A stretch of DNA of 26,018 bases, taken from positions 1-26,018 of the IMG/VR virus record IMGVR_UViG_3300033388_001210. One strand, 5' to 3'. Positions 8,973 through 22,405 of the stretch are shown in pieces (the first letter of the stretch is position 1; each line of letters begins with the position of its first letter). The position numbers and the translations under genes were made by a program. Below the pieces are notes generated by a model. It was not told where the DNA came from. It worked only from the letters and a program-made list of their open reading frames with translations, and searched no databases. This DNA comes from a virus.

Positions 8973-9812
8973 ATGTCACAACAAATAGATAATGTTTTTA
9001 TTGATTTCTTTGACGCTGAAGTTAAAAGAAGTTACGGAGACAAAAGAAAATTAAACGGGACTACTTACGAAAAACAAGTTACAGGTAAAACTGCATACTT
9101 CAATAAAAAAGGTAAAGGTTTAGCTACACAACATAACTCAGGTTCAGAAGTTACATATATGAATACTGAATTCTCAAGAGTTTCTTGTGATTTACAAGAC
9201 TGGGAAGCATTCGACCAAGCAGATAAATTTGACGCTAAGAAAATTAATTTCTCAGAAGTTTCAGAACTAGCAGAAGTAGCTGGTGATGCTATTGGTTTAA
9301 GAATGGATCAAATTATCATTGACGCTATCAACACAGGTAGAAATACAGGTGATGCTTCTTATACAGTAGGTACAGTAGGAACAGCTTTAACAGTTGCTAC
9401 ATTACTTAAAGGTAAGAAAAGATTAGATAAAAATGGTGTTGAATCTACAGATAGATACTTTATGCATAGTGCAGACCAATTAGAAGACTTGTTAAATACA
9501 ACACAAGTTACATCAGCTGACTATAACTCAGTTCAAGCTTTAGTACACGGTACAGTAGGTTCATTCTTAGGAATGAAATTTATTGACATAGCTGACAGAC
9601 AAGAAGGTGGATTACCTAATCCTGGTGCTACATCAGTTAGAGGATTTATCTATCACAAGCGTTCAGTTGGTTCAGCTATTGCTATGGGAATGGAAACAGA
9701 AATGTCTTGGATTCCTAAAGAAAGAGCTTATATGGTAGGTGCTGAATTCTCAGCAGGTGCAGTAGTAATTGATGACGAAGGTATCGTATCAGTTCAATCA
9801 TTAACATCATAA
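8973..9812 (+). CDS. Major capsid protein
   Basis: A 279-residue protein lying right after the scaffold, with features of the podophage HK97-fold coat proteins: an N-terminal arm (residues 1-20), a strand region V-T-G-K-T-A-Y-F-N-K-K-G-K-G resembling the E-loop area, a long spine-type helix around residues 95-120 (E-L-A-E-V-A-G-D-A-I-G-L-R-M-D-Q-I-I-I-D-A-I), and a C-terminal domain ending with G-A-V-V-I-D-D-E-G-I-V-S-V-Q. It is shorter than T7 gp10A (345) but in the normal range of this group. It has the strongest ribosome site in the region (AAAAGGAG), its own promoter and a codon composition noticeably richer in GCT/GGT/GAA than its neighbours, consistent with very high expression. Confidence 0.9.
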   Translation: MSQQIDNVFIDFFDAEVKRSYGDKRKLNGTTYEKQVTGKTAYFNKKGKGLATQHNSGSEVTYMNTEFSRVSCDLQDWEAFDQADKFDAKKINFSEVSELAEVAGDAIGLRMDQIIIDAINTGRNTGDASYTVGTVGTALTVATLLKGKKRLDKNGVESTDRYFMHSADQLEDLLNTTQVTSADYNSVQALVHGTVGSFLGMKFIDIADRQEGGLPNPGATSVRGFIYHKRSVGSAIAMGMETEMSWIPKERAYMVGAEFSAGAVVIDDEGIVSVQSLTS

Positions 9813-9832: not shown

Positions 9833-10090
9833 ATGGCTTTCGATATTAAAAACATCAGTTCAATAAGTAACAACAAAAATCTAGTAGCAGGCGGAGGAAT
9901 CCCAAACAGATTCCAATTCTGGAACGAAGATGGAGACACAGTTACAACTGAAGACTATATCCCATTAAACAATGGTATTAGAAAAGGTGACCAAGTTATC
10001 GTTGTAGATGCAGACTATGGAAATAGTACTGACTATAACGCAGTAGCAGATGGTACAACTGGCTTGTTAACTTTAACAGCTAACGCTTAA
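9833..10090 (+). CDS. Small capsid-proximal protein sharing the fibre N-terminal module
   Basis: An 85-residue beta-rich protein. It begins M-A-F-D-I-x-x-I-S-S, has E-D-Y-I-P-L at residues 40-45 and G-D-Q-V-I-V-V-D at about 53-60, and ends with G-L-L-T-L-T. The first 87 residues of the fibre gene at 20045 follow the same plan (M-A-F-D-L-x-x-L-V-S, S-D-Y-F-N-E-L, N-D-T-I-T-V-L, G-V-V-E-V-E). The two are probably homologous modules. The position right after the capsid gene suggests a head decoration or minor head protein. Ribosome site AAGGAAATAAAAAATT. A terminator follows. Confidence 0.7.
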   Translation: MAFDIKNISSISNNKNLVAGGGIPNRFQFWNEDGDTVTTEDYIPLNNGIRKGDQVIVVDADYGNSTDYNAVADGTTGLLTLTANA

Positions 10091-10096
10091 TTATAA

Positions 10097-10122
10097 TTAC
10101 AGGGTGTAAAAGCCCTGTTTTA
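10097..10122 (+). terminator. Terminator-like hairpin after the small capsid-proximal gene
   Basis: ACAGGG (10099-10104) pairs perfectly with CCCTGT (10113-10118) around an 8-base loop, with a further T-G closing pair possible inside, and is followed by TTTTAT. The T-run is short (four to five), so it is probably leaky. It would make the downstream genes less expressed than the capsid gene. Confidence 0.7.
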
Positions 10123-10139
10123 TAAAGAAAGGAAAAATT

Positions 10140-10391
10140 ATGGCAGATTCAAAAGGGCTAGCAGAACTAGCAACAACTGAATTAGATGTAGTTACAACTG
10201 CAGCGACAACAGTTTATCTTGCGGTTATAGTTGATGATATTCCAAAGAGAATAACATTAGCAGATTTAATTGCAGTTATAGGTGGTGAGATTTCTATTTT
10301 AGATTTATCAGACACACCTTCAGCATTTAGTGCTTCAGATACTTGGAAGACAAATGCAGGCGCGGACGCTGTAGAACAAGTTACAGTATAA
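10140..10391 (+). CDS. Small structural protein with fibre-like C-terminal motif (83 aa)
   Basis: The first 50 residues are Ala/Thr/Val/Ile-rich and beta-like (A-A-T-T-V-Y-L-A-V-I-V-D-D-I-P-K-R-I-T-L-A-D-L). The end carries L-S-D-T-P-S-A-F followed by W-K-T-N-A-G-A-D-A-V-E, a pattern found in phage tail fibres (L-S-D-T-P-x-x-Y...V-x-x-G-x-x-L-x-F). The fibre gene of this same phage has the related G-L-S-D-V-F...L-K-W-N-G-G-T-A-R-F-E. The protein may be a head or tail fibre-like appendage. Ribosome site AAAGGAAAAATT; placed between two terminator-like hairpins. Confidence 0.6.
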   Translation: MADSKGLAELATTELDVVTTAATTVYLAVIVDDIPKRITLADLIAVIGGEISILDLSDTPSAFSASDTWKTNAGADAVEQVTV

Positions 10392-10399
10392 TAATAATT

Positions 10400-10420
10400 G
10401 GGAGGGGTAACCCTCCTTTT
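10400..10420 (+). terminator. Terminator-like hairpin before the tail genes
   Basis: GGAGGG (10401-10406) pairs perfectly with CCCTCC (10411-10416) around a GTAA tetraloop and is followed by four T and ATT. The GC-rich 6-bp stem with a GNNA-type loop should be very stable. It sits 9 bases after the stop of the small structural gene and 17 bases before the start of tail tubular A. The short T-run suggests partial termination. Confidence 0.8.
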
Positions 10421-10436
10421 ATTACAAGGAGAGTTT

Positions 10437-11021
10437 ATGGCTTATACAGAAGACCAAATAAAACAATTAATGGCAAACGAGCTAGGACAAAGAGACGGAT
10501 TAGATTTCAGTTCAGATACTAACGAGGCAGTTAGAAAGATAAATGCTAGTTATCCTTTAATAGTAAGAACAGCCCTACAGAGATATAGATGGGGTTTTGC
10601 TAATACAACAGTAAAATTAGATACTCCTAATGATTTAACAGATAATAAATATAAATACAGCTATGAATTACCAACGGATTTTTTAAAGTATATAACATCA
10701 TTTAACGATGCAAACAGATTAAATCCTATTATAGATTATGACCCACCATTAAAAGGGTTGTTAGATTGTAATGTAAAAGACCAAGTATACTTAAACTACA
10801 CAGCAGATGTTGACGTATCATTATACACCGATTACTTTGTTGATTACTTGAAGCTTAAAGGAGCATTTGAATTATGCTATGACCTTACAGGCGATACACA
10901 ACTATTACAAGTATTACAAGCAAGAGAAGCGAAACAATGGGCTATATCAACTAATATAGATACAGTACAAAAAAGAACAAGAAGAATAGCAAACGCACCT
11001 TATATAAGCGTAAGAGGTTAA
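10437..11021 (+). CDS. Tail tubular protein A-like (gp11-type)
   Basis: A 194-residue protein, near the length of T7 gp11 (196). It shows the family pattern: N-terminal helix, A-V-R-K-I-N-A-S-Y-P-L-I-V-R-T-A-L-Q-R-Y-R-W-G-F-A at about residues 34-58 (helix with the W-x-F-A end), then beta segments (Y-E-L-P-T-D-F-L-K-Y-I near 78-88) and a C-terminal Y-L-K-L-K-G-A-F-E-L-C-Y-D-L-T-G-D. The ring it forms connects the portal to the nozzle. The start at 10437 is chosen over an in-frame TTG at 10398 because the latter would translate through the terminator stem, while AAGGAGAG lies just before this ATG. Confidence 0.85.
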   Translation: MAYTEDQIKQLMANELGQRDGLDFSSDTNEAVRKINASYPLIVRTALQRYRWGFANTTVKLDTPNDLTDNKYKYSYELPTDFLKYITSFNDANRLNPIIDYDPPLKGLLDCNVKDQVYLNYTADVDVSLYTDYFVDYLKLKGAFELCYDLTGDTQLLQVLQAREAKQWAISTNIDTVQKRTRRIANAPYISVRG

Positions 11022-11022
11022 T

Positions 11023-14007
11023 ATGAAAACAGCAAAGAAACAAGTTAAATTTAGTAAAGGTGAAGTAAACCAATCCCTAATTGAAAGAACTGATATATCT
11101 TTGTTGAACTCATCAGCTAGTTACATTAGTAACTACATTGCTACTTTATACGGTGGGATTAAAACAAGACAAGGCACATTAGACATTGATAGTATTTTAA
11201 GTTCATTAGTACCTAAAGAAACTACATTTGTGTCTTCTATTGGTGGAGATGTAGCAGATATAGGTTCAGGCTTTGTATCAACTACTATTAACGGTGCTAC
11301 TCTAGAATTACACGGTGATTTATCTACATCAGATGTTTACGAGAACATAACAATCAATAATATTAAATTAAGCTTTGAAGATGGTGCAGTTAGTGCTACA
11401 GATACAGCTGGAGTTATTGATGCTACTTCTATAGACTTGCCAGGTAAGGGATATAAAGATATTACATTAACTGTCGTAGGAGACGGTATAGATGCAGTAT
11501 TAACACCTACACTAGCAACAGACGGTTCTATAGCCTCTATAGCTATTACAAACGGAGGAACAGGCTATACTTCTTACACAGTAGAGATTACAGAGAATGA
11601 TGTATGGACTGACACGCAAACATTAGAGATTTCAGTAGATAATGCTATATGGACTAAGGTAGCAGACTTTGAAATAACAAGATTGGCTAATACATTGTCT
11701 TATCCTATAGTAAGCTCTTATAGATATGTAAGATTATCAAGAGATGGCTCTAGTATTACAACTTGTTTAGAGTTGTTGGACTTTGTTATATATGATAAAG
11801 TTGATGCAGAGAATAGAGTTAGAATGGCTGACTTTGTATTTAGTGAAGATGAAAAGTATGCTTTAATATTTACAAACGAAACAGTAAGAGTTTATCAAGA
11901 TGATATATTAATTGAGACTATCCCAGCAGTAGGCTTATTAGACGACTATTTTAAAAGGTTAAAGTTTACTCAAGCAGAAGACACAATGATACTTACACAC
12001 CCTAATATGCCGCCTAAACAGCTTATTAGAGGACTAGATGCTACAACAAATACTATTATACCTGAATTTGGTGCAGGTGAAACTACCAAAGACGGTTACA
12101 CAATATCAGCAGATAGTTCCAATCCTTATAAAGTTTGGGATTTAAACACATCTACTTACTCTACATTAGGAGAATATCTAACAGAGATGGTTCGTTATTT
12201 AGAGGGTGGTTACCCTACTACTTATGACCACTTATTACCTAATAACTTTATATGTGATTTTGATGGGGCTAAGGATTTAAAGAGAATTACATTCAGAGCT
12301 AAAGATATGAGCCAATATGAAGTTTATACAAAAGATAATCTAGGTAATTACACATTGCAAAAAGGTGGAGTGTTTAGCAATACCCCATCAGAAACAAAAG
12401 ACATTACAGTAAACTTAGATGTAAATTGTTATGGTTATAAAATATATACTTATGGTGTTAAGGTTAATACAAGAGTACCTAGAGTAGTTGCAGAACCTGA
12501 TAGTTATAAATCAGAATGGTATCCAGTTAAGATGTATGATTCAAGAACATTTGAATCTGTTAATACATTGTTTAGCTTTGATGATTTTGAGTTAGAAGGT
12601 ATACCATATTATAATTATGATGCTTTAATAAAAACCAATCCAGCTGTAAGTATTACACCTAGTTCAGCAGACGGCTCAGGAGAGATAACAGCAAGTGGCT
12701 CAATCTTTACAATAGATTCAGTAGGACAATATATAAACACAGATTTGGGTTCAAGGTTTAAAATTACTTCTTATATAAGTGGTACTAAGGTTTCAGGTTA
12801 TACAATTATACCTTTCTTAAATACAAGTGCTATTGGTTCTCAGAAATGGGAATATGAAGCAGGTTATGAATTGGTGTGGAGTGAAGAGAGAGGTTATCCT
12901 TTAACTTGCTTATTCTATCAACAAAGATTATGGTTCGGCGGCTCTAAAGGTAGACCTCAGACTATATGGGGTTCAAGAATTAATCAATATCATAGCTTTG
13001 AGAACATAGGGCAATACGATAATGATGCTATTGAAGCACCTATTGCAGCTAAAGAAACCAACGAGATTGTAAACTTATACGATAATAGAGGGTTACAAAT
13101 ATTTACAGGTGGCGCAGAGTATATAGCTAATGATTCATCATTAACACCTAGTAACATCTTTATAACTAAAACTACCCCTAATGGAAGTTTAAGCAACTTA
13201 GCTCCTGTTTCAGTAGGTGGTGTTACTTTATTCTTAGAGAAAAACGGTAAGAGTTTATTAAGTTTCGTTTATAACGAAGTTCAGGCTAACTATATCACAG
13301 ATAATATTTCATTATTAAGTTCTCATTTAATAGCGAACCCATTAAGATTAGCAGTTGATTATAACTCTAATAATGATAATGGTAACTATTTATATATGGC
13401 TAAAGAAGATGGTGAGTTGTTAGTGTCTAATATATTACTAGACCAAAAGATAAACGCCTTTACTAGAATTAACACAGCAGGATTAGTTAAAGATGTTATG
13501 GTTCTTAAATCAGATACTTACTTATTAGTAGAAAGACTTGATGTTTTATACTTAGAGAAACTAGCAGATGTTAAGACTGATTGCAGTTTAATTAAAGCAC
13601 CAACATTAACTATCACAGGACTAGAGAAGTTTGAAGACTTAGAAGTAAGAGCTTATAACGATATAGATTACGGGTTATATACAGTTGAAAATGGAGAGAT
13701 AACATTAAATGATACTCCAACAGAACCTGTTATTATAGGTGAGGACATACCTTGTCAATTAAGGTCTAACCCAGTTTACATAAGTAACGAGACAACATCT
13801 ATATATAAAAGAATATCTAAAGCTATCTTGACAACTAAGGATACAACCTCTATAATATTAAATGGAGATGTAGACACATCTGACGATAATATCTTTGAGT
13901 TCTTTTCTGTTAGTGGTTATGAAAGAGAGAATAAGTTCACAATAACAAGCACATTCGATAACTTAGAATTATTATCAGTAATGTTGCATATAAATTACGG
14001 AGATTAA
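11023..14007 (+). CDS. Tail tubular protein B-like (gp12-type nozzle) with inserted domains
   Basis: A 994-residue protein, longer than T7 gp12 (794). The N-terminus has the classic F-S-K-G-E-V-N-Q-S-L-I-E-R-T-D and N-Y-I-A-T-L-Y-G-G-I-K-T-R-Q-G-T pattern (residues 10-52), and the core has P-L-T-C-L-F-Y-Q-Q-R-L-W-F-G-G and P-Q-T-I-W-G-S-R at about 625-650, then Q-I-F-T-G-G-A-E-Y near 695. Insertions: a G-K-G-Y...N-G-G-T-G-Y repeat-like unit at 141-186, a discoidin (F5/8C)-like segment at about 190-258 (T-L-E-I-S-V-D-N-A-I-W ... Y-R-Y-V-R-L), and a second discoidin-like segment at about 355-490. These modules often bind sugars. The nozzle closes the short tail. Confidence 0.87.
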   Translation: MKTAKKQVKFSKGEVNQSLIERTDISLLNSSASYISNYIATLYGGIKTRQGTLDIDSILSSLVPKETTFVSSIGGDVADIGSGFVSTTINGATLELHGDLSTSDVYENITINNIKLSFEDGAVSATDTAGVIDATSIDLPGKGYKDITLTVVGDGIDAVLTPTLATDGSIASIAITNGGTGYTSYTVEITENDVWTDTQTLEISVDNAIWTKVADFEITRLANTLSYPIVSSYRYVRLSRDGSSITTCLELLDFVIYDKVDAENRVRMADFVFSEDEKYALIFTNETVRVYQDDILIETIPAVGLLDDYFKRLKFTQAEDTMILTHPNMPPKQLIRGLDATTNTIIPEFGAGETTKDGYTISADSSNPYKVWDLNTSTYSTLGEYLTEMVRYLEGGYPTTYDHLLPNNFICDFDGAKDLKRITFRAKDMSQYEVYTKDNLGNYTLQKGGVFSNTPSETKDITVNLDVNCYGYKIYTYGVKVNTRVPRVVAEPDSYKSEWYPVKMYDSRTFESVNTLFSFDDFELEGIPYYNYDALIKTNPAVSITPSSADGSGEITASGSIFTIDSVGQYINTDLGSRFKITSYISGTKVSGYTIIPFLNTSAIGSQKWEYEAGYELVWSEERGYPLTCLFYQQRLWFGGSKGRPQTIWGSRINQYHSFENIGQYDNDAIEAPIAAKETNEIVNLYDNRGLQIFTGGAEYIANDSSLTPSNIFITKTTPNGSLSNLAPVSVGGVTLFLEKNGKSLLSFVYNEVQANYITDNISLLSSHLIANPLRLAVDYNSNNDNGNYLYMAKEDGELLVSNILLDQKINAFTRINTAGLVKDVMVLKSDTYLLVERLDVLYLEKLADVKTDCSLIKAPTLTITGLEKFEDLEVRAYNDIDYGLYTVENGEITLNDTPTEPVIIGEDIPCQLRSNPVYISNETTSIYKRISKAILTTKDTTSIILNGDVDTSDDNIFEFFSVSGYERENKFTITSTFDNLELLSVMLHINYGD

Positions 14008-14010
14008 ATT

Positions 14011-14511
14011 ATGCCAGAAGGACAAGGATATTTAACACAAGCACAAGCTCATTTTAATGAAGCAGCTAATTTATCTAAGATTGGTGGTTACGGAGCTATT
14101 GCTAGTGGGATTATAGATTTTGGTGTATTAAGAAACCAAAAAGCAGAAGCCAAGAATAGAGCAGCAGCTATTGAATTGCAAGCAGAACAACGAGCAAACA
14201 TCTTATTAGAGTCTTTTAATGCTTCTATGGGAAATTTACAGTTTAGCGCAGCAAGAAGAGGAGTTAAAGCTGGAGAAGGTTCTGTAATGAGAAACATTGA
14301 GTTATCATCTAAAGACTTAGGCGAAGATATACAAGCAAGAAGAAGAGAAGCAAGTATTAAAGCTGGTAAAGTTAAGACACAAGCTAAGACAGATTTCTCA
14401 GCAGGTGTTGTAGGTTCTTTATCAGGTGGAACAGAAGGGTTCTTAAAAGGTATGGAAGGATTCAAAAGAAATAAAAGCTTAGCAGATTTATTAGGAGGTT
14501 CAAATGAATAA
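14011..14511 (+). CDS. Internal virion protein, gp14-like
   Basis: A 166-residue Ala-rich helical protein. It has a Gly/Ala-rich semi-hydrophobic segment (I-G-G-Y-G-A-I-A-S-G-I-I-D-F-G, residues about 24-38), then a long charged helix, then the motif N-L-Q-F-S-A-A-R-R-G-V-K-A-G-E-G-S at about 75-91, and a second helix rich in R and A. The same arrangement is seen in T7 gp14-type internal core proteins (196 residues in T7), which are ejected first and form the outer-membrane part of the DNA channel. It lies just after the nozzle gene, as gp14 does relative to other core genes. Ribosome site GGAGATTAAATT. Confidence 0.75.
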   Translation: MPEGQGYLTQAQAHFNEAANLSKIGGYGAIASGIIDFGVLRNQKAEAKNRAAAIELQAEQRANILLESFNASMGNLQFSAARRGVKAGEGSVMRNIELSSKDLGEDIQARRREASIKAGKVKTQAKTDFSAGVVGSLSGGTEGFLKGMEGFKRNKSLADLLGGSNE

Positions 14512-16048
14512 GATATTCACAAGCCAAAAAACAGTAGACACAGGAATCACACAAGGTATTAGACCGACTGGTGCTGATTTACTTAGAAAACAAGTAGGTA
14601 AAACTCAGGCTCTTGCAGAAAAAGAAGAGCAAAAGGGGTTTAAGAGAGTAGAAGAAGCAACTAAGACATTTAAAACTGGATTAGAAACTGAATCTAAACT
14701 ACAAATGAATGAGTTATATAACTTAAATTCTGACAATCCTGAAGAGTTGTTTAAACAATTTCAATCTATGAATGAAAAGCTAGGTGAAGATATTCCTATT
14801 GAAGGCATAAGAGAAGAAGTTGTAGCTAATAACTTACTTACTCAACAATCTTTAATGACAAGAGCAGATAATAACTTTAATAAACAACAAACCAAAAAGA
14901 ATAAGTTAGTAAGTTCTGAATCTATAGATACAAGTATAAACTCATTAAAAGAAATATCTACTGTATTTTTCAACCCTGAAGAATCAGAATCAGTAAATAA
15001 TACAAAGATACAAGCTCAAAATGAAATAAACAATATTATAAACTTAGCAAACTCTAAAGATGCTGATGGCTTCCCTATATTCTCTGATAGTGAGAAAGAC
15101 AAGATGTTAGCCTCTGTCAGCGATATTAAAACACTAGGTTATGAAACTAATGTAGATGAGTTGTTTGAAGTGTCCCCTGAAAAAGCAGAAGCTTATATGC
15201 AGGATATGGAACTTAACAAAGACAAATTTATTAAAAAGTATAAGATAGATAACGAAGAATATGACGATATGCTTTCTTATAATAAGACTGTAAGGTCTAG
15301 ATTTAAAATTGCAGAACTACAAAAACAAACGATAGGTTCTCAAGCAGGTAGCGAGATTATAACTAACCCTGAATTAAGTACAGCCAATAAAAAGATAGAG
15401 ATTAACAAATTACTATTAGAAGGCTCTATTACTTCACAATATGCAGGTAAGCTTAAAGGTGTGTTATTATCTGATAAGGCAATAGGTGCTAGTGATGATG
15501 CTGATGCTATGGCTGATATTATCCTAAGAGTAAATGACTTAAATGCTAGGGCTGACTTAGACCAAGAAGATTATCTAATTGGTGTTAGAAACATTAGAGA
15601 CGAAATACTAGACAGAAGAACATCAGGTAATTTAAGTGAAGAGGGTAGCACTAAACTAAATAATCAAATATCTACTTTAACTTCTGCTAAAATATCAGGA
15701 GCAACTAACATAGTAGGTTATAACTTTAATGTAGGTAGTGATATGTTTGAAAACCAATTACCACCTGAGTTTAGAGGTAAAGCAACAAGAGAGCTATTTT
15801 ATCAAACAGAAGGACAAGAACCTACAGAAGCAGAGCAAAAGGCTCTTGCTACTACTATTATTGATAGTATAAATGTACAAAGAAGAGATAAGACTATTCA
15901 AAGAGTTAACGAGATTAAACAAGTGCAAGCTGTGAATGTAGAAGAAGAAGCTAAGAAGCTTAACATTTCTATTTCAGATATAAAAGAAACAGCAAGAATC
16001 CATAACTTAACAGAAGAACAAGTAATTCAAAGACTGAAAGGTAATTAA
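14504..16048 (+). CDS. Large helical virion protein (probable ejection protein, gp15 position)
   Basis: A 514-residue, almost fully helical, Lys/Glu/Asn/Leu-rich protein without obvious catalytic motif. The N-terminal T-D-T-G-I-T-Q-G-I-R-P-like stretch leads into long coiled-coil-type regions (residues 30-130, 220-280, 470-510). It occupies the place of T7 gp15 between a gp14-like protein and a giant core protein, which is why an internal core role is likely. Sequence similarity to gp15 itself is not visible by eye. It overlaps the upstream gene by 8 bases with a TAGGAGG ribosome site and is coupled to the next gene. Confidence 0.7.
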   Translation: MNKIFTSQKTVDTGITQGIRPTGADLLRKQVGKTQALAEKEEQKGFKRVEEATKTFKTGLETESKLQMNELYNLNSDNPEELFKQFQSMNEKLGEDIPIEGIREEVVANNLLTQQSLMTRADNNFNKQQTKKNKLVSSESIDTSINSLKEISTVFFNPEESESVNNTKIQAQNEINNIINLANSKDADGFPIFSDSEKDKMLASVSDIKTLGYETNVDELFEVSPEKAEAYMQDMELNKDKFIKKYKIDNEEYDDMLSYNKTVRSRFKIAELQKQTIGSQAGSEIITNPELSTANKKIEINKLLLEGSITSQYAGKLKGVLLSDKAIGASDDADAMADIILRVNDLNARADLDQEDYLIGVRNIRDEILDRRTSGNLSEEGSTKLNNQISTLTSAKISGATNIVGYNFNVGSDMFENQLPPEFRGKATRELFYQTEGQEPTEAEQKALATTIIDSINVQRRDKTIQRVNEIKQVQAVNVEEEAKKLNISISDIKETARIHNLTEEQVIQRLKGN

Positions 16049-19000
16049 TGGCTGATTTATTTAAAGATACAGAGAGCAAGGGCAAAGATTTATTCGCTGG
16101 CGGTAAAGACTTATTTGCTGGTGCAGTTGCTCCTGAACCTATTTCTACTACAGAACAGAATATAAATGCTGTTAATAGCGGTATACCTGTAGATTCAACT
16201 CCTGAATTAAAACAAGATTACGATGATAATATGTCTCAATGGGAACAGTTAGGACAATCAAGATTTTCACCTGAAAGATTAGAAAGCTTTAAAAACAATC
16301 CTATTGGGTTCTTAGAAGCTAGTGATTTTTTAGAAACTAAAGATGTAGTTCCTTTAGGTGGATTAGCGCAAGGTGTAGAATCATTACAAATATTAAACAT
16401 CTCTAAGAAGCTAGAAAAAGGTGAAGAAGTTACAGAACAACAACAAGAACAGTTTAATTCTTATATTGATAAGATGACAGAGATAAATCTAAGGGGTTTT
16501 GATGTTGGTGGTAAAATTGGTTACTATGGTATGCAAATGCCAGCCTTTATGACAGAGTTTGCTTTGACTGCTGGAGTTGGTAAGATAGCACAAAAGGCAA
16601 CCACAACTGGAATAAAAAAAGGAGCTGTTAAAGTTGCTGTTGGTACTGCAGCTAATATAGCGGCTAGGTCTACTGTAATGATGCCTATGAATGTTAGCAC
16701 GTACGGAAACAGAAGATTAAATAATTTTATGTCTATTACTGATAAAGGACAGGTATTAACACAAGAGGGTAAAGAATCTCCTGTAAAAAGTGCCTTGATG
16801 AGTTATGGGTATACAACAGCCTCAGTTGGTTCTGAAATGGCAGGTGGAGTTATATTGAAGGGTGTAAGTAAAGTATTATCACCATTAGGAGTATTAAAAA
16901 CTCCTTTAACACAAGCTGTAAATAAATTGCCTATGAGTGTACAAAAAGGACTGTATCAATCTTATAAAAAAATAAATGTTAATTCTAAAATATCTAACGC
17001 TTTTTCAAGAGTTGGTTATAATGGTATGCTAGGAGAATTAGGGGAAGAAGAACTAGAAAATGTATTAGCAGCAGGTATTGGACTTGTAGGTGGAGATTTA
17101 GACCTACAAGGTGCATTAGAAGCTGTCAAAGGCGACAACACAGATAGATTAGCGACTGCTGGTATCATTGGTATAATGGGTGGAGCTAGTGTGTCTTTTA
17201 ACACAGCTGTAAACTTATTCACAAGAAAAGGTTCTTCTCCAATAGAAGCTAAAGAACTTGCTAGTAATATGACAGAAACAGAACTAGATGAGTTTGTAAA
17301 TAATGAGTATCCTTTACCTAAGAGTGGTTATAAGTTTAATGAGTTTGAATCTAAGAGAAAAGAAGATTTAGATGTTACTTCTCCACAATCAATTCAAGGA
17401 GACTTAGCTAATATAGAAATAAAAAACCAACAAGAACTAGATACTCCTTTAGTGGCAGATGAAGAGAGTGGATTTAATAACGGCTTTATGACTAAAGCAG
17501 AAGCTGTAAAAGAAAAAGCTATTGACCTAAAAGATAGATTTGTGTTTGAAATGGTAAACGATAAAAGGTTCTTAGAATCTTTAAGCCCTGATATTAAACA
17601 ATCTATTAGACAATTCTACGGTATAGCTGGAACTATAAGACAAAACTTACAAGTAGGTATCTATGAAGTAGTTGACGGTAAGAACCAAATAGTAGGTAAA
17701 TCTTTAAAGTCTATTACTGATGACTGGAATAATGCTATATTAGAGAAAGAACCTAGCTTAGATAATAGATTAAACGACCAAAACGAATACTTACAAGCTC
17801 GTAGAATGTTAGAAGATTTAATACCTAGAGCAGATGTAGAAATAACAGACACACAAAAGACTAAAGCTATTACAGATATGGCTAGACTTAATGAGAAGTA
17901 TGGCGATAAAATGGAGTGGTTTGAAGAGTTCTCTAATGAGCTATACGAAAACCAACAAACTATATTACATAAATTAGTTGATTCAGGGGTGATGAGTGAG
18001 GAATCATTTAAGGCTATTACAGAAGCTAACCCACATTATATATCATTTAATAGAATTATTGAAGACGGTGGATTTAGTGGTTACTCTAAGAAAAGAAAGT
18101 TTACAGATGCTAAACCTGATATTAAGAAAATCAAAGGTGGCTCTGATTTAGAAATAGGTAACTTCCTAAAAACTGTATCAATCAACACAGGTAAGATGAT
18201 AACTATTGCAGAAAGAAACAGAATAGCTACATCAGTAAAAGATGTATTAGTTGGTATGGGGCAAACTGAGAAGTCTAAACCTTTATTAAAAGAAAAAGAA
18301 CTTGACGGTAAGACTGTATTAAAACCATCAAGACAGAAACCTGAGGGGACTATGTCAGTTTATGAAAATGGCGAAAGAGTATTTTACTCAGTAGATGAAA
18401 AAGTATTAAGAGAAGTAGAACAACAAGACCCTAATGTAAATAGATTTATGGCTGGGTTATTATCTCCTTTGAGAGTATCAGCTAAAGTAATGAGAGCAGG
18501 AGCTACAGGATTAAACCCTGAGTTCTGGAGTAGAAACTTTATTAGAGATACATTTATGGTTAATCTACAATCTAAAGTAAACCCTAATGCAAAAGATGCA
18601 GTACAAGGTATATTTACTGTTTTAGGTCAAACAGATGCTTATAACGAATGGGAAGCAGCAGGAGGTTCATTTGATTCATATATGGGTCAAGACCCTAAAG
18701 AGATGGATAAAAACCTAGAAGAAATATATAAAGACTTATACGGTCAACACAGTAAAGTCCATAGATACTTAAGAAACCCACTAAGAGCTATTGAAGATGT
18801 TGGTGATGTAGTAGAAAAAGCTAACCGTTTAGGTGTATTTCAAAAAGCCCTTAAAAAAGGATTAAGCGAGAAAGAAGCTGTATTCGAATCAAGAGATGCT
18901 TCCTTAGACTTTATGGTTGGTGGTAAAACTGGTCGAATTATAAATAGATATATACCCTTCTTTAATGCAGGTATTAGAGGTTCTGCTAAGTTAATGAGCA

Positions 19001-20019
19001 CAATTAAGACAAACCCTAAAGCATTTATGTATCACGGTATTACTAGAATGACATTGCCTACTATACTTTATAACTATTATATGTTATATCAAGCTCCTGA
19101 TGACGAAAGAGAAGAATACTTAGAACTCCCTACTTGGAGAAGAATGTTATCTTGGAATGTTAAAATCGGTGATAACTGGTGGTCTATACCTAAGCCATTT
19201 GCTCCAGGTCAATTATTCGCAACAGTCCCTGAGATGTTAATGTTAAAAGGATATAAAGGAAACAAGCCTGAAGTAGAGAATATGGGTCGTGAGATTGTTA
19301 TGGGTATGGCTGGTTCATTAGTTCCAATTCAAGATATTAGTGGGGTTATGCCTCCATTGTTAAAGTACTCTATAGAGAGTATGACAAACTATAATTTCTT
19401 TACAGGTAGAAATATTTATCCTGAATGGATGGATAGACTAGAACCTTCTGAAAGAGCTAGTAAACACACACCCGAATCTATGAAGATGTTAGGAGAACAA
19501 TTTAATGTATCTCCAGCTTTAATTAACAATGCTTTAAGAGGACAATTCGCAGGTAGTGCAAGGTTCTTTACAGATGCAGCTGATAAAGTTATAAAAGAAG
19601 TTAGAGAGTTCAACGGAGAGAAGACATCTGATAAACCTATTGTACCAGCAGATATTCCTTTGGTAAGGTCTATGGCTGTAAGAACTCCATCAGGTTATGG
19701 TACTATCTCAGCAAGTAATTTCTTTGATAACTGGAATACAATCCAACAAAAGAATGCTACTTTCAATAAGAAAAAAGGCAAAGATAAGAAGGAATACTTT
19801 GAGAAAAACAAGAGAGAATTAACATCTTATAAACTAATGAAGGGCTTTTATAATCAAATGAAATCCATTAGAGATATTGAAGATAGAATTTACACAGATA
19901 AAAATATGAGTTCTGAGGATAAAGTAGATAAGATAAAATCTTTAGATAAGAAAATAGACACTATCGTTAAGAAAGCAAACAAGACTTATAAAAATAGGTT
20001 GCAAAAAGAAAATAAATAA
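16048..20019 (+). CDS. Giant ejection/polyvalent protein with LPD38-type region
   Basis: A 1323-residue protein in the place of T7 gp16 (1318). The first 25 residues contain a direct repeat G-K-D-L-F-A-G (12-18, 19-25). Hydrophobic Gly/Ala-rich stretches at about 155-215 and 365-390 may insert in membranes. Residues about 800-1100 match the large polyvalent protein-associated domain 38 pattern: L-N-P-E-F-W-S-R-N-F-I-R-D, D-V-V-E-K-A-N-R, R-Y-I-P-F-F-N-A-G-I-R-G, and W-W-S-I-P-K-P-F. I see no lytic transglycosylase motif as in gp16. The C-terminal 130 residues are highly charged helices. It most likely enters the cell with the DNA. An AAAGGTAATTA ribosome site precedes the start. Confidence 0.8.
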   Translation: MADLFKDTESKGKDLFAGGKDLFAGAVAPEPISTTEQNINAVNSGIPVDSTPELKQDYDDNMSQWEQLGQSRFSPERLESFKNNPIGFLEASDFLETKDVVPLGGLAQGVESLQILNISKKLEKGEEVTEQQQEQFNSYIDKMTEINLRGFDVGGKIGYYGMQMPAFMTEFALTAGVGKIAQKATTTGIKKGAVKVAVGTAANIAARSTVMMPMNVSTYGNRRLNNFMSITDKGQVLTQEGKESPVKSALMSYGYTTASVGSEMAGGVILKGVSKVLSPLGVLKTPLTQAVNKLPMSVQKGLYQSYKKINVNSKISNAFSRVGYNGMLGELGEEELENVLAAGIGLVGGDLDLQGALEAVKGDNTDRLATAGIIGIMGGASVSFNTAVNLFTRKGSSPIEAKELASNMTETELDEFVNNEYPLPKSGYKFNEFESKRKEDLDVTSPQSIQGDLANIEIKNQQELDTPLVADEESGFNNGFMTKAEAVKEKAIDLKDRFVFEMVNDKRFLESLSPDIKQSIRQFYGIAGTIRQNLQVGIYEVVDGKNQIVGKSLKSITDDWNNAILEKEPSLDNRLNDQNEYLQARRMLEDLIPRADVEITDTQKTKAITDMARLNEKYGDKMEWFEEFSNELYENQQTILHKLVDSGVMSEESFKAITEANPHYISFNRIIEDGGFSGYSKKRKFTDAKPDIKKIKGGSDLEIGNFLKTVSINTGKMITIAERNRIATSVKDVLVGMGQTEKSKPLLKEKELDGKTVLKPSRQKPEGTMSVYENGERVFYSVDEKVLREVEQQDPNVNRFMAGLLSPLRVSAKVMRAGATGLNPEFWSRNFIRDTFMVNLQSKVNPNAKDAVQGIFTVLGQTDAYNEWEAAGGSFDSYMGQDPKEMDKNLEEIYKDLYGQHSKVHRYLRNPLRAIEDVGDVVEKANRLGVFQKALKKGLSEKEAVFESRDASLDFMVGGKTGRIINRYIPFFNAGIRGSAKLMSTIKTNPKAFMYHGITRMTLPTILYNYYMLYQAPDDEREEYLELPTWRRMLSWNVKIGDNWWSIPKPFAPGQLFATVPEMLMLKGYKGNKPEVENMGREIVMGMAGSLVPIQDISGVMPPLLKYSIESMTNYNFFTGRNIYPEWMDRLEPSERASKHTPESMKMLGEQFNVSPALINNALRGQFAGSARFFTDAADKVIKEVREFNGEKTSDKPIVPADIPLVRSMAVRTPSGYGTISASNFFDNWNTIQQKNATFNKKKGKDKKEYFEKNKRELTSYKLMKGFYNQMKSIRDIEDRIYTDKNMSSEDKVDKIKSLDKKIDTIVKKANKTYKNRLQKENK

Positions 20020-20044
20020 TTAAACTATAAACAAAGGAGTATAT

Positions 20045-22405
20045 ATGGCATTCGATTTAGACAAACTAGTATCATTCGCGGGACAAGGTAAACGAGGTTC
20101 TTCATATCAAACATTTGGTTATGTAGCAACAGACCCTAAAGCAGAGGTTATAGCTAGTGATTACTTTAATGAACTTAAAGGTAAAGCATCAATTAACGAT
20201 ACTATTACAGTATTAAATAATTCAGGAGATGATGAGGGTAAGTCCTACTTATTAAAAGTAATTTCTATTAATATCAATGGAGTTGTAGAGGTCGAGGATA
20301 TATCTTGGCACGGTGTTATTAGTGGAGATGTAGATTTTAATGGACACGGTGCTACTAATGTTGGATATATAGACTTTATTTTAACTGCTACTATAGCACA
20401 CCAAGAGGGTAGATTACATTGGAACGGCGATGATGGAACTCTTGAATTAGGAATGCCAGGTGGTAATGTTAACCTACAAATAGGACAAGAGAACCTTATT
20501 AGAGCAACTAACGATGAAGGAGATGATATAATTAACGGTCAAGCTGTTTATGTAAGTGGTGCATCAGGTGCTAATCCTGAAATTATGTTAGCAGATAAAG
20601 ATTCATTAACTACAGCCTCAGTGATTGGGGTTGTTACAGAGAATATTACAGATAATCAAAAAGGTTATGTTACTACTTTCGGATATGTTAGAGATATGGA
20701 TACTTCTGGTATTTCAGAGGGAGCTATTGCTTGGTTAGGAGATGACGGTAACCTTACGGGGACAAGACCTACTTCACCTGATATTCAAGTTGGCGTTGGT
20801 ATAGTAATGAGAGAACACGCTGACGAAGGTGTATTGTTTGTTAATCCATATATTACACCTAGATTACAAGGACTTAGTGATGTATTTATAACTCCAGTTG
20901 ATGGCGATTTACTTAAATGGAATGGTGGAACTGCAAGATTTGAAGCTTATAATGTAGGCATAACAAAAGAACCTACTGGATTTGTAGAGCCTAAAGATGT
21001 TATTATTACAGGTAACGGAGATGAAACAGTAACTTTAACAGGAACAGTAAATGCTTATTATGAAGGTGTTAAGAGTACAACTATTATAAACGGTTGGACT
21101 TCACCAGCACACGGAACAGATATAAATGATTCTTATTTCTTAATGGATAACGGAACAACTATTGACTGGGTTTTAGAATCTAGTGGATTTGGAGAAGATA
21201 TTTACTCTAATCTTTTGATATGTTTTGCATTCTATGACCCTACTAATGCTACTTGGGTTTATTTAAGAGAACCGCACGGTTTAATGCCTTGGCAATCACA
21301 CAGAGAAAATCACAAAGTAAACGGAACATTTAGAGATAGTGGTGGTTCGTTAGCTGATTATGTATTAGATAGTACAACAGCAGCGGATAGAAGACCTTCT
21401 ATAAGTGCTTGTTTATTATATGATGAAGATTTACCAACTGAAAACAATGCTTTACCAACTGGTACTTATACTAATTTTTATATAAACGGTGCAGATGCTG
21501 ATGTAAACTTTGTTACAGGACAAGCAGATATAATCCCTTTAAGTACAAACCAACCCTATTGGAATGAGTTTACAGGTGGTGCTTGGCAACAAACATTGAT
21601 GTCTAACAACTATTATAGTTATTCATTTGTAATTGCTATCCCTATGTGTGAAGATTCTGACTCACAAGATTTAAGATATATACACGTTCAAGGGCAACAT
21701 CAAGATAATAGCTTATCTAATATACAAGCTATAACAACAAACGATGTGAGCTTAGGTAAGTTTAGCTTATTACTACCTGAATTTATAGGTATTACTAAAG
21801 TTATTCACCAATATACAGCTGGTAATTGGAAGCTTATTGAAGTAACTGATTTGACAGGTACAAGTTCAAGTCAAGTATCTTCACCAGCAGGCAACTTTTT
21901 AACAAGTGTTACAAGTGATGCTACATTATCAGGATTAGGAACTGCTTCTAGTCCTTTAGGAGTAGTCCCTACATTAACAACAAAAGGTGATTTACTAGGG
22001 TTTACAACAGTTAAAGCTAGATTAGGTGTAGGAACAGATGACCAAGTATTAACAGCAGATAGTACAGCACCAACGGGATTTGCTTGGAAGGCTGGAGGTG
22101 GAAGTTTTACAAGAGATGTATTGTTCACAGGAAGTGCAGGAGTATCAACTATTAACTTAAGTCAAGATATAAATGATTATAATTTCTTAGAAATAACAGG
22201 GTATGTTTCTAGTAGCAGTTTAGTAAATTCGAGGGTTATAACCGTTGAAACATTTAAAGAAACTTCTTCTTCCTTTAAAGAAGATATTAGATTTACAACA
22301 GCAACAGTAGATAGAGCGGTAGTGTTCTATTATGCTACTGATACATCAATAACTATTTCAACAGCAGCAAGTGCAACATTAACAAAAGTAGTAGGAGTAA
22401 AATAA
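20045..22405 (+). CDS. Tail fibre / receptor-binding protein
   Basis: A 786-residue modular protein. Residues 1-87 are an anchor-like module related to the small protein at 9833. Residues about 140-290 match a common fibre domain (I-N-G-Q-A-V-Y-V-S-G-A-S-G, S-V-I-G-V-V-T-E-N-I, K-G-Y-V-T-T-F-G-Y-V), followed by G-L-S-D-V-F...L-L-K-W-N-G-G-T. The centre (about 310-600) is a Trp/Tyr/Asn-rich beta region with the best chance of receptor contact. Near 605-690 are L-S-G-L-G-T-A-S-S-P-L-G-V and T-K-G-D-L-L-G-F...L-G-V-G-T-D-D-Q-V-L-T-A-D, typical of fibre shafts and tips. No pectate-lyase or sialidase motif is evident. An AAAGGAG ribosome site is present. Confidence 0.87.
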   Translation: MAFDLDKLVSFAGQGKRGSSYQTFGYVATDPKAEVIASDYFNELKGKASINDTITVLNNSGDDEGKSYLLKVISININGVVEVEDISWHGVISGDVDFNGHGATNVGYIDFILTATIAHQEGRLHWNGDDGTLELGMPGGNVNLQIGQENLIRATNDEGDDIINGQAVYVSGASGANPEIMLADKDSLTTASVIGVVTENITDNQKGYVTTFGYVRDMDTSGISEGAIAWLGDDGNLTGTRPTSPDIQVGVGIVMREHADEGVLFVNPYITPRLQGLSDVFITPVDGDLLKWNGGTARFEAYNVGITKEPTGFVEPKDVIITGNGDETVTLTGTVNAYYEGVKSTTIINGWTSPAHGTDINDSYFLMDNGTTIDWVLESSGFGEDIYSNLLICFAFYDPTNATWVYLREPHGLMPWQSHRENHKVNGTFRDSGGSLADYVLDSTTAADRRPSISACLLYDEDLPTENNALPTGTYTNFYINGADADVNFVTGQADIIPLSTNQPYWNEFTGGAWQQTLMSNNYYSYSFVIAIPMCEDSDSQDLRYIHVQGQHQDNSLSNIQAITTNDVSLGKFSLLLPEFIGITKVIHQYTAGNWKLIEVTDLTGTSSSQVSSPAGNFLTSVTSDATLSGLGTASSPLGVVPTLTTKGDLLGFTTVKARLGVGTDDQVLTADSTAPTGFAWKAGGGSFTRDVLFTGSAGVSTINLSQDINDYNFLEITGYVSSSSLVNSRVITVETFKETSSSFKEDIRFTTATVDRAVVFYYATDTSITISTAASATLTKVVGVK

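Follow-up and report, generated by a model that had tools for sequence, protein, structure and literature searches.

Decoration proteins whose outer parts are adhesive or fibrous have been described, with the phi29 gp8.5 head fibres and T4 Hoc as examples, and Ig-like domains occur on tail fibres as well as on head and decoration proteins (PMC7602432). In phage 7-7-1, capsid fibres reach the host (PMC12796354). LME-1, a mobile element of Legionella pneumophila (PMC9765430), is described as a phage in a 2025 paper, according to the citation of that paper in PMC13306086, and PDB entry 9EG4 is entitled as a cryo-EM structure of the icosahedral capsid of LME-1 phage.

The locus studied here lies in a stretch of viral DNA of 26,018 nucleotides (IMG/VR record IMGVR_UViG_3300033388_001210, positions 1 to 26,018), which we call the window. 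Its major capsid protein (279 aa; PF19821, E 1.5e-60) is encoded on the plus strand at 8973-9812 and is followed, after a gap of 20 nt, by the gene of a small protein of 85 aa (9833-10090, plus strand). On the same strand, at 20045-22405, lies a fibre gene of 786 aa, whose first 87 residues are encoded by 20045-20305. A first-pass annotation of the window had proposed that the small protein and this N-terminal part of the fibre share one module, and both genes do lie where it had placed them.

Relation of the small protein to the fibre N-terminus

All motifs on which this proposal was built are present, in the small protein and the fibre, respectively, as MAFDIKNI and MAFDLDKL, EDYI and SDYF, GDQVIVV and NDTITVL, and GLLTL and GVVEV. 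The D-Y-[IF] segment had been taken for a strand; the segment is there, but in structure models it forms a loop or short helix with no clear strand. Compared directly, the two sequences give no BLASTP alignment at E <= 100, and a global-alignment shuffle test of the pair is not significant (p 0.066; p 0.34 with the first four residues, MAFD, held fixed). When aligned, the small protein and the fibre module are 19% identical.

It is their relatives that connect them. A family of unannotated phage proteins, phrog_18004, matches the fibre N-terminus at E 6.6e-8 (1.4e-9 in a second search) and the 85-aa protein alone at E 0.0097 (3.3e-4 in the second search), and nothing else in the window record matches it. 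The fibre N-terminus also matches gp30 of Methylophilales phage MEP301 (E 9e-7), the product of a small gene downstream of the capsid gene that occupies the slot of the 85-aa gene, and relatives of gp30 occur in at least 80 viral contigs. With an iterated profile of this family, the fibre reaches 4.6e-21, whereas the small protein, the top scorer outside the family, reaches only 0.027. Searching with the capsid protein of the window yielded two phages that bridge the gap, L091 and L092. Their capsid proteins share 68% and 59% identity with that of the window, and their post-capsid proteins of 81 and 80 residues are 40% and 56% identical to the small protein and are matched, at 3e-11 and 2e-8, by a family profile built without the clade of the small protein. 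A comparison of profiles, as the first-pass annotation had suggested, revealed significant similarity between this clade and the family over nearly the full length (E 5.3e-12, probability 97.5%, 77 columns) and gave E 7.3e-12 when redone with larger sets. Since relatives thus bridge two sequences which as a pair stay within chance, we accept their homology: the small protein and fibre residues 1-87 are homologous modules.

Neither sequence belongs to a family in Pfam or NCBIfam. The Pfam entries DUF4330 and IgG_binding_B gave weak matches to single members only, and designed TIM barrels, which appeared among early phmmer matches of the small protein, vanished with a profile and were taken as chance. 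Two scans of genome contigs for the module gave no match.

Fold of the module and its relative in the LME-1 capsid

In order to avoid circularity, AlphaFold models were made from non-overlapping alignments, i.e. from the clade of the small protein only (7 sequences, pLDDT 73) and, for the fibre N-terminus, from the remaining family (37 sequences, pLDDT 77.5). As this model confidence is moderate, only the fold should be read from them. The strands follow each other in identical order, at residues 26-30, 54-58, 65-72 and 78-83 of the small protein and 23-28, 53-58, 67-75 and 81-89 of the fibre module. For both models, the best-matching PDB chain is 9eg4_H, with Z 9.7 over 77 residues (rmsd 1.7; next match 5.1) for the fibre module and Z 8.6 over 75 residues (rmsd 2.1; next match 5.9) for the small protein. 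Foldseek also ranked 9EG4 chain H first for the small protein (probability 1.00); for the fibre module, 9EG4 was not among the top 50 and came first once the top 1000 had been realigned. The structural comparison proposed in the first-pass annotation hence bears out its idea, in that the folds agree and have their best match in common. That two unrelated small beta proteins merely resemble each other by chance would be in line with the direct pairwise comparison, which is not significant, but the profile–profile similarity (E 5e-12), the bridge sequences (1e-8 to 1e-11) and the same top structural match from models on non-overlapping alignments leave this explanation with next to no probability.

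Chain H of 9EG4 is called 'orf16' and has 269 residues, of which residues 1-87 match the module profile (E 2e-8). Of this capsid-associated LME-1 protein, residues 2-90 (89 residues) have been modelled, and these are the module. Chain A, the capsid protein, has a homologue in the capsid protein of the window (E 9.1e-27). The entry contains seven chains each of orf16 and the capsid protein, as expected for a T=7 asymmetric unit. These contents suggest that the module is the ordered, capsid-bound part of orf16, with the remainder being flexible.

These findings bear on two further proposals of the first-pass annotation. A binding partner common to the fibre anchor and the small head protein is well supported, as the solved relative sits in an icosahedral capsid model; most likely, and with fair confidence, this partner is the capsid lattice or surface. 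For a location of the small protein at the portal vertex, by contrast, nothing speaks: in the icosahedral model the chain count of the relative equals that of the capsid protein, which implies the whole lattice rather than the portal vertex.

Linkage to the capsid gene

Of the 103 loci that hold both genes, 102 have the start of the module gene no farther than 100 nt from the capsid gene, at a median distance of 14 nt. Twenty of the linked loci were reached via the capsid protein and most others via the module, so no single search can have produced the linkage artificially. Downstream of the small gene, the window carries a terminator-like hairpin with a short T run (10099-10118, plus strand; ACAGGG..CCCTGT followed by TTTA), which a stricter terminator scan missed because the T run is too short. 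A hairpin at this spot behind the module gene is present in 28 of 53 distinct loci as compared to 19 of 790 random stretches, a contrast somewhat inflated by the coding DNA that the random stretches include. With their close linkage and the hairpin, the capsid and module genes look as if they formed the last part of a single unit with strong expression. The 85-aa protein, a stand-alone and capsid-linked version of the module, is probably a capsid decoration protein.

Several other features were observed around these genes. Another small gene (10140-10391, 83 aa) separates the module gene from that of tail tubular A, with a terminator-like hairpin of its own downstream (10400-10417). Its product matches phrog_18667 (E 0.0087), and by eye its end, LDLSDTPSAFSASDTWKTNAGA, resembles the fibre stretch LSDVFITPVDGDLLKWNGG. 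Further downstream, a promoter that fits the sigma-70 consensus perfectly (13828-13856; TTGACA, 17 nt, TATAAT) lies close to where the tail tubular B gene ends and directly precedes the genes of the internal virion proteins.

Not every phage of this capsid family has a detectable module: it was not detected in three Vibrio phages or in the pelagiphages HTVC034P and Baldr, all of which have homologous capsid proteins. Such absence is as expected of an accessory decoration protein. In the post-capsid slot, HTVC034P (L007:27915-28412) and Baldr (L008:9441-9893) encode proteins of 165 and 150 aa; these (HTVC034P gp51 and Baldr 014) do not match the module profile and are possibly other decoration proteins. 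Scanning of whole records found a single module in 32 of 33 matching records. The exception is the Dunaliella viridis virus SI2, whose post-capsid protein has two modules in tandem (L005:1880-2374); the host label of this alga-named record is doubtful because the record has tailed-phage genes.

An alternative is that the module is simply a small stable beta domain or oligomerization cap, its two copies sharing ancestry and not a binding partner. Small beta domains are indeed widely reused in phage structural proteins, as exemplified by Ig-like domains (PMC7602432), and with 19% identity the fibre module differs strongly from the small protein of its own phage. Against this stand the strict linkage of the module family to one capsid family, the N-terminal position of the module in long proteins, which is where fibre anchors sit, and the fact that in 9EG4 this domain is the only one of orf16 to be modelled on the capsid, as fits an anchor. 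We therefore regard this alternative as improbable.

A fibre with an exchangeable body

The fibre body, residues 93-640 (20321-21964, plus strand), is of an exchangeable, tail-fibre type. It recurs with 90% identity in contig L154 behind a different N-terminus and, in parts, with 40-49% identity in five further contigs (L155-L159), in one of which (L155) the related body follows the siphophage tail protein domain Sipho_Gp37 (E 3e-52). Residues ~106-300 match proteins annotated as tail fibres in Pseudomonas, Roseobacter and Synechococcus phages. The fibre gene of L154 (L154:5653-9198), whose product has an unrelated N-terminus, comes from the same sample set (IMG 3300033388) as L001 and L062, and together with this shared origin the 90% identity of the body points to recent exchange. 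Anchor and body are interchangeable, and with a tail-fibre-type body behind an anchor of the capsid-decoration type, the fibre protein of the window is a recombinant.

Long proteins that start with the module are found only in the window (786 aa), in L062 (636 aa) and in L050 (236 aa). In L050 the gene lies between those of tail tubular A and B, in L062 between the small gene and tail tubular A, i.e. inside the head gene cluster, where two more proteins (97 and 333 aa) are encoded between the small module protein and the 636-aa protein (L062:1099-2390). In the window, the fibre gene follows that of a large internal virion protein and thus occupies the tail-fibre slot of its relatives. In 25 related records, including MEP301 (gp22), HTVC034P (gp43) and Baldr, fibres have a different N-terminal anchor domain in common (E <= 1e-7), and a profile of this domain matches no open reading frame of the window at E <= 10. 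In L146 and L147, the nearest relatives of the window, this slot is filled by a protein of 107 residues together with a fibre of a further type. The window was found to have none of these anchors. No other tail-fibre candidate was found within the 26-kb window, and given its position the fibre may be the tail fibre of this phage; as the record may be a fragment, a second fibre could lie outside.

Anchor domains may also be exchanged in the opposite direction. In contig L084, a head-cluster protein of 368 aa encoded directly after the module gene (L084:1258-2364) starts with the N-terminal domain of the relatives' tail fibres (E 4.6e-9), and the same anchor domain recurs on a later fibre of this contig.

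The position of the fibre gene also suggests a different division of labour, in which the small protein decorates the capsid and the fibre module has been repurposed as a tail anchor, making the protein an ordinary tail fibre at the portal/tail junction that perhaps touches the capsid subunits ringing the portal. The gene does sit in the tail-fibre slot of its relatives, its body resembles tail fibres, and with the relatives' anchor domain present in no open reading frame of the window, a replacement would be needed. On the other hand, the only solved relative of the module belongs to an icosahedral capsid model, the gene of this phage's small protein accompanies the capsid gene and not tail genes, and the long module protein of L062 is a head-cluster product. 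Weighing these points, we hold a tail-anchoring role to be rather unlikely, though clearly the strongest competitor of a fibre on the capsid.

Origin of the two module copies

The first-pass annotation called the modules duplicated, which does not quite fit this phage, as a recent copying event within the genome is unlikely: the best alignment of the fibre module is to small proteins of MEP301-like phages (score 120), while it barely aligns to the small protein of its own phage (score -1). In a weak tree, placing the fibre module together with the clade of the window is nonetheless not rejected (p-AU 0.10), whereas the corresponding grouping for L062 is (p-AU 0.008). We read the fibre module as an old or imported copy rather than a fresh duplication. 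Its closer resemblance to the small proteins of another lineage also means that its affinity for the capsid of this phage is not assured.

A capsid-surface anchor as the proposed function

Overall, we propose with some confidence that the shared module, of ~85 residues, is a capsid-surface anchor domain. The stand-alone 85-aa protein would be made along with the capsid protein and coat the mature capsid as a decoration, while residues 1-87 of the fibre would dock a tail-fibre-type receptor-binding body, presumably trimeric, onto the same capsid lattice, probably using a minority of the sites that the small protein occupies. Whereas homology, fold and gene order are shown, it is inferred that the module of this phage binds the capsid, in what copy number, as a trimer and on the outer face, and that the fibre uses capsid rather than tail sites. 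A fibre on the capsid in general is favoured over one that sits only near the tail vertex. A point against a capsid fibre is that a lattice-wide anchor seems wasteful for a fibre that is usually needed in few copies.

More tentatively, and with rather more doubt than belief, the usual tail-fibre anchor may have been swapped for a decoration domain, such that the main receptor-binding fibre of this phage resides on the capsid lattice and the decoration site has become a docking point for exchangeable bodies. If the fibre is on the capsid, it would be the shell through which a short-tailed phage makes contact with its host. This would change how host range is read from such a genome, and nature would provide an example of large proteins displayed on a capsid. 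More generally, the analysis proposes a function for an unannotated family whose genes adjoin the capsid gene in more than a hundred viral contigs, and it shows that a fibre body can be passed from an anchor of the tail type to one of the capsid type or back.

Comparison with known systems

In the literature searched, a scope outside which the LME-1 capsid paper lies, no description of a link between fibre and decoration protein was found. New are the function proposed for PHROG 18004, the link of this family to the LME-1 capsid and the use of the anchor on a tail-fibre-type body. Both sequences of the window match PHROG 18004, whose members are unannotated; both its connection with decoration and that with fibre anchoring come from the present analysis.

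The closest described counterpart is orf16 of LME-1 (9EG4 chain H), which shares with the window the module, at its residues 1-90, the family of the capsid protein and a place in an icosahedral capsid model. It differs in being a protein of 269 aa with ~180 further, unmodelled residues, whereas the window has the module both alone, as 85 aa, and on a 786-aa fibre at a tail-fibre locus. MEP301 resembles the window in its gp30, a single-module protein of 88 aa encoded between the capsid gene and the tail tubular A gene, but has only one module copy, and its fibre gp22 carries another N-terminal domain.

That one domain family serves in head decoration as well as in tail fibres has a precedent in the Ig-like domains of virions. 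There, they are added surface domains, whereas the part shared here is an N-terminal anchor, and Ig folds were absent among the leading structural matches of the module models. In general layout, the fibre of the window rather recalls phi29 gp8.5 and T4 Hoc, in which a capsid-binding end is likewise combined with an outward part suited to host adhesion, but which, as described in review (PMC7602432), are built from other folds.
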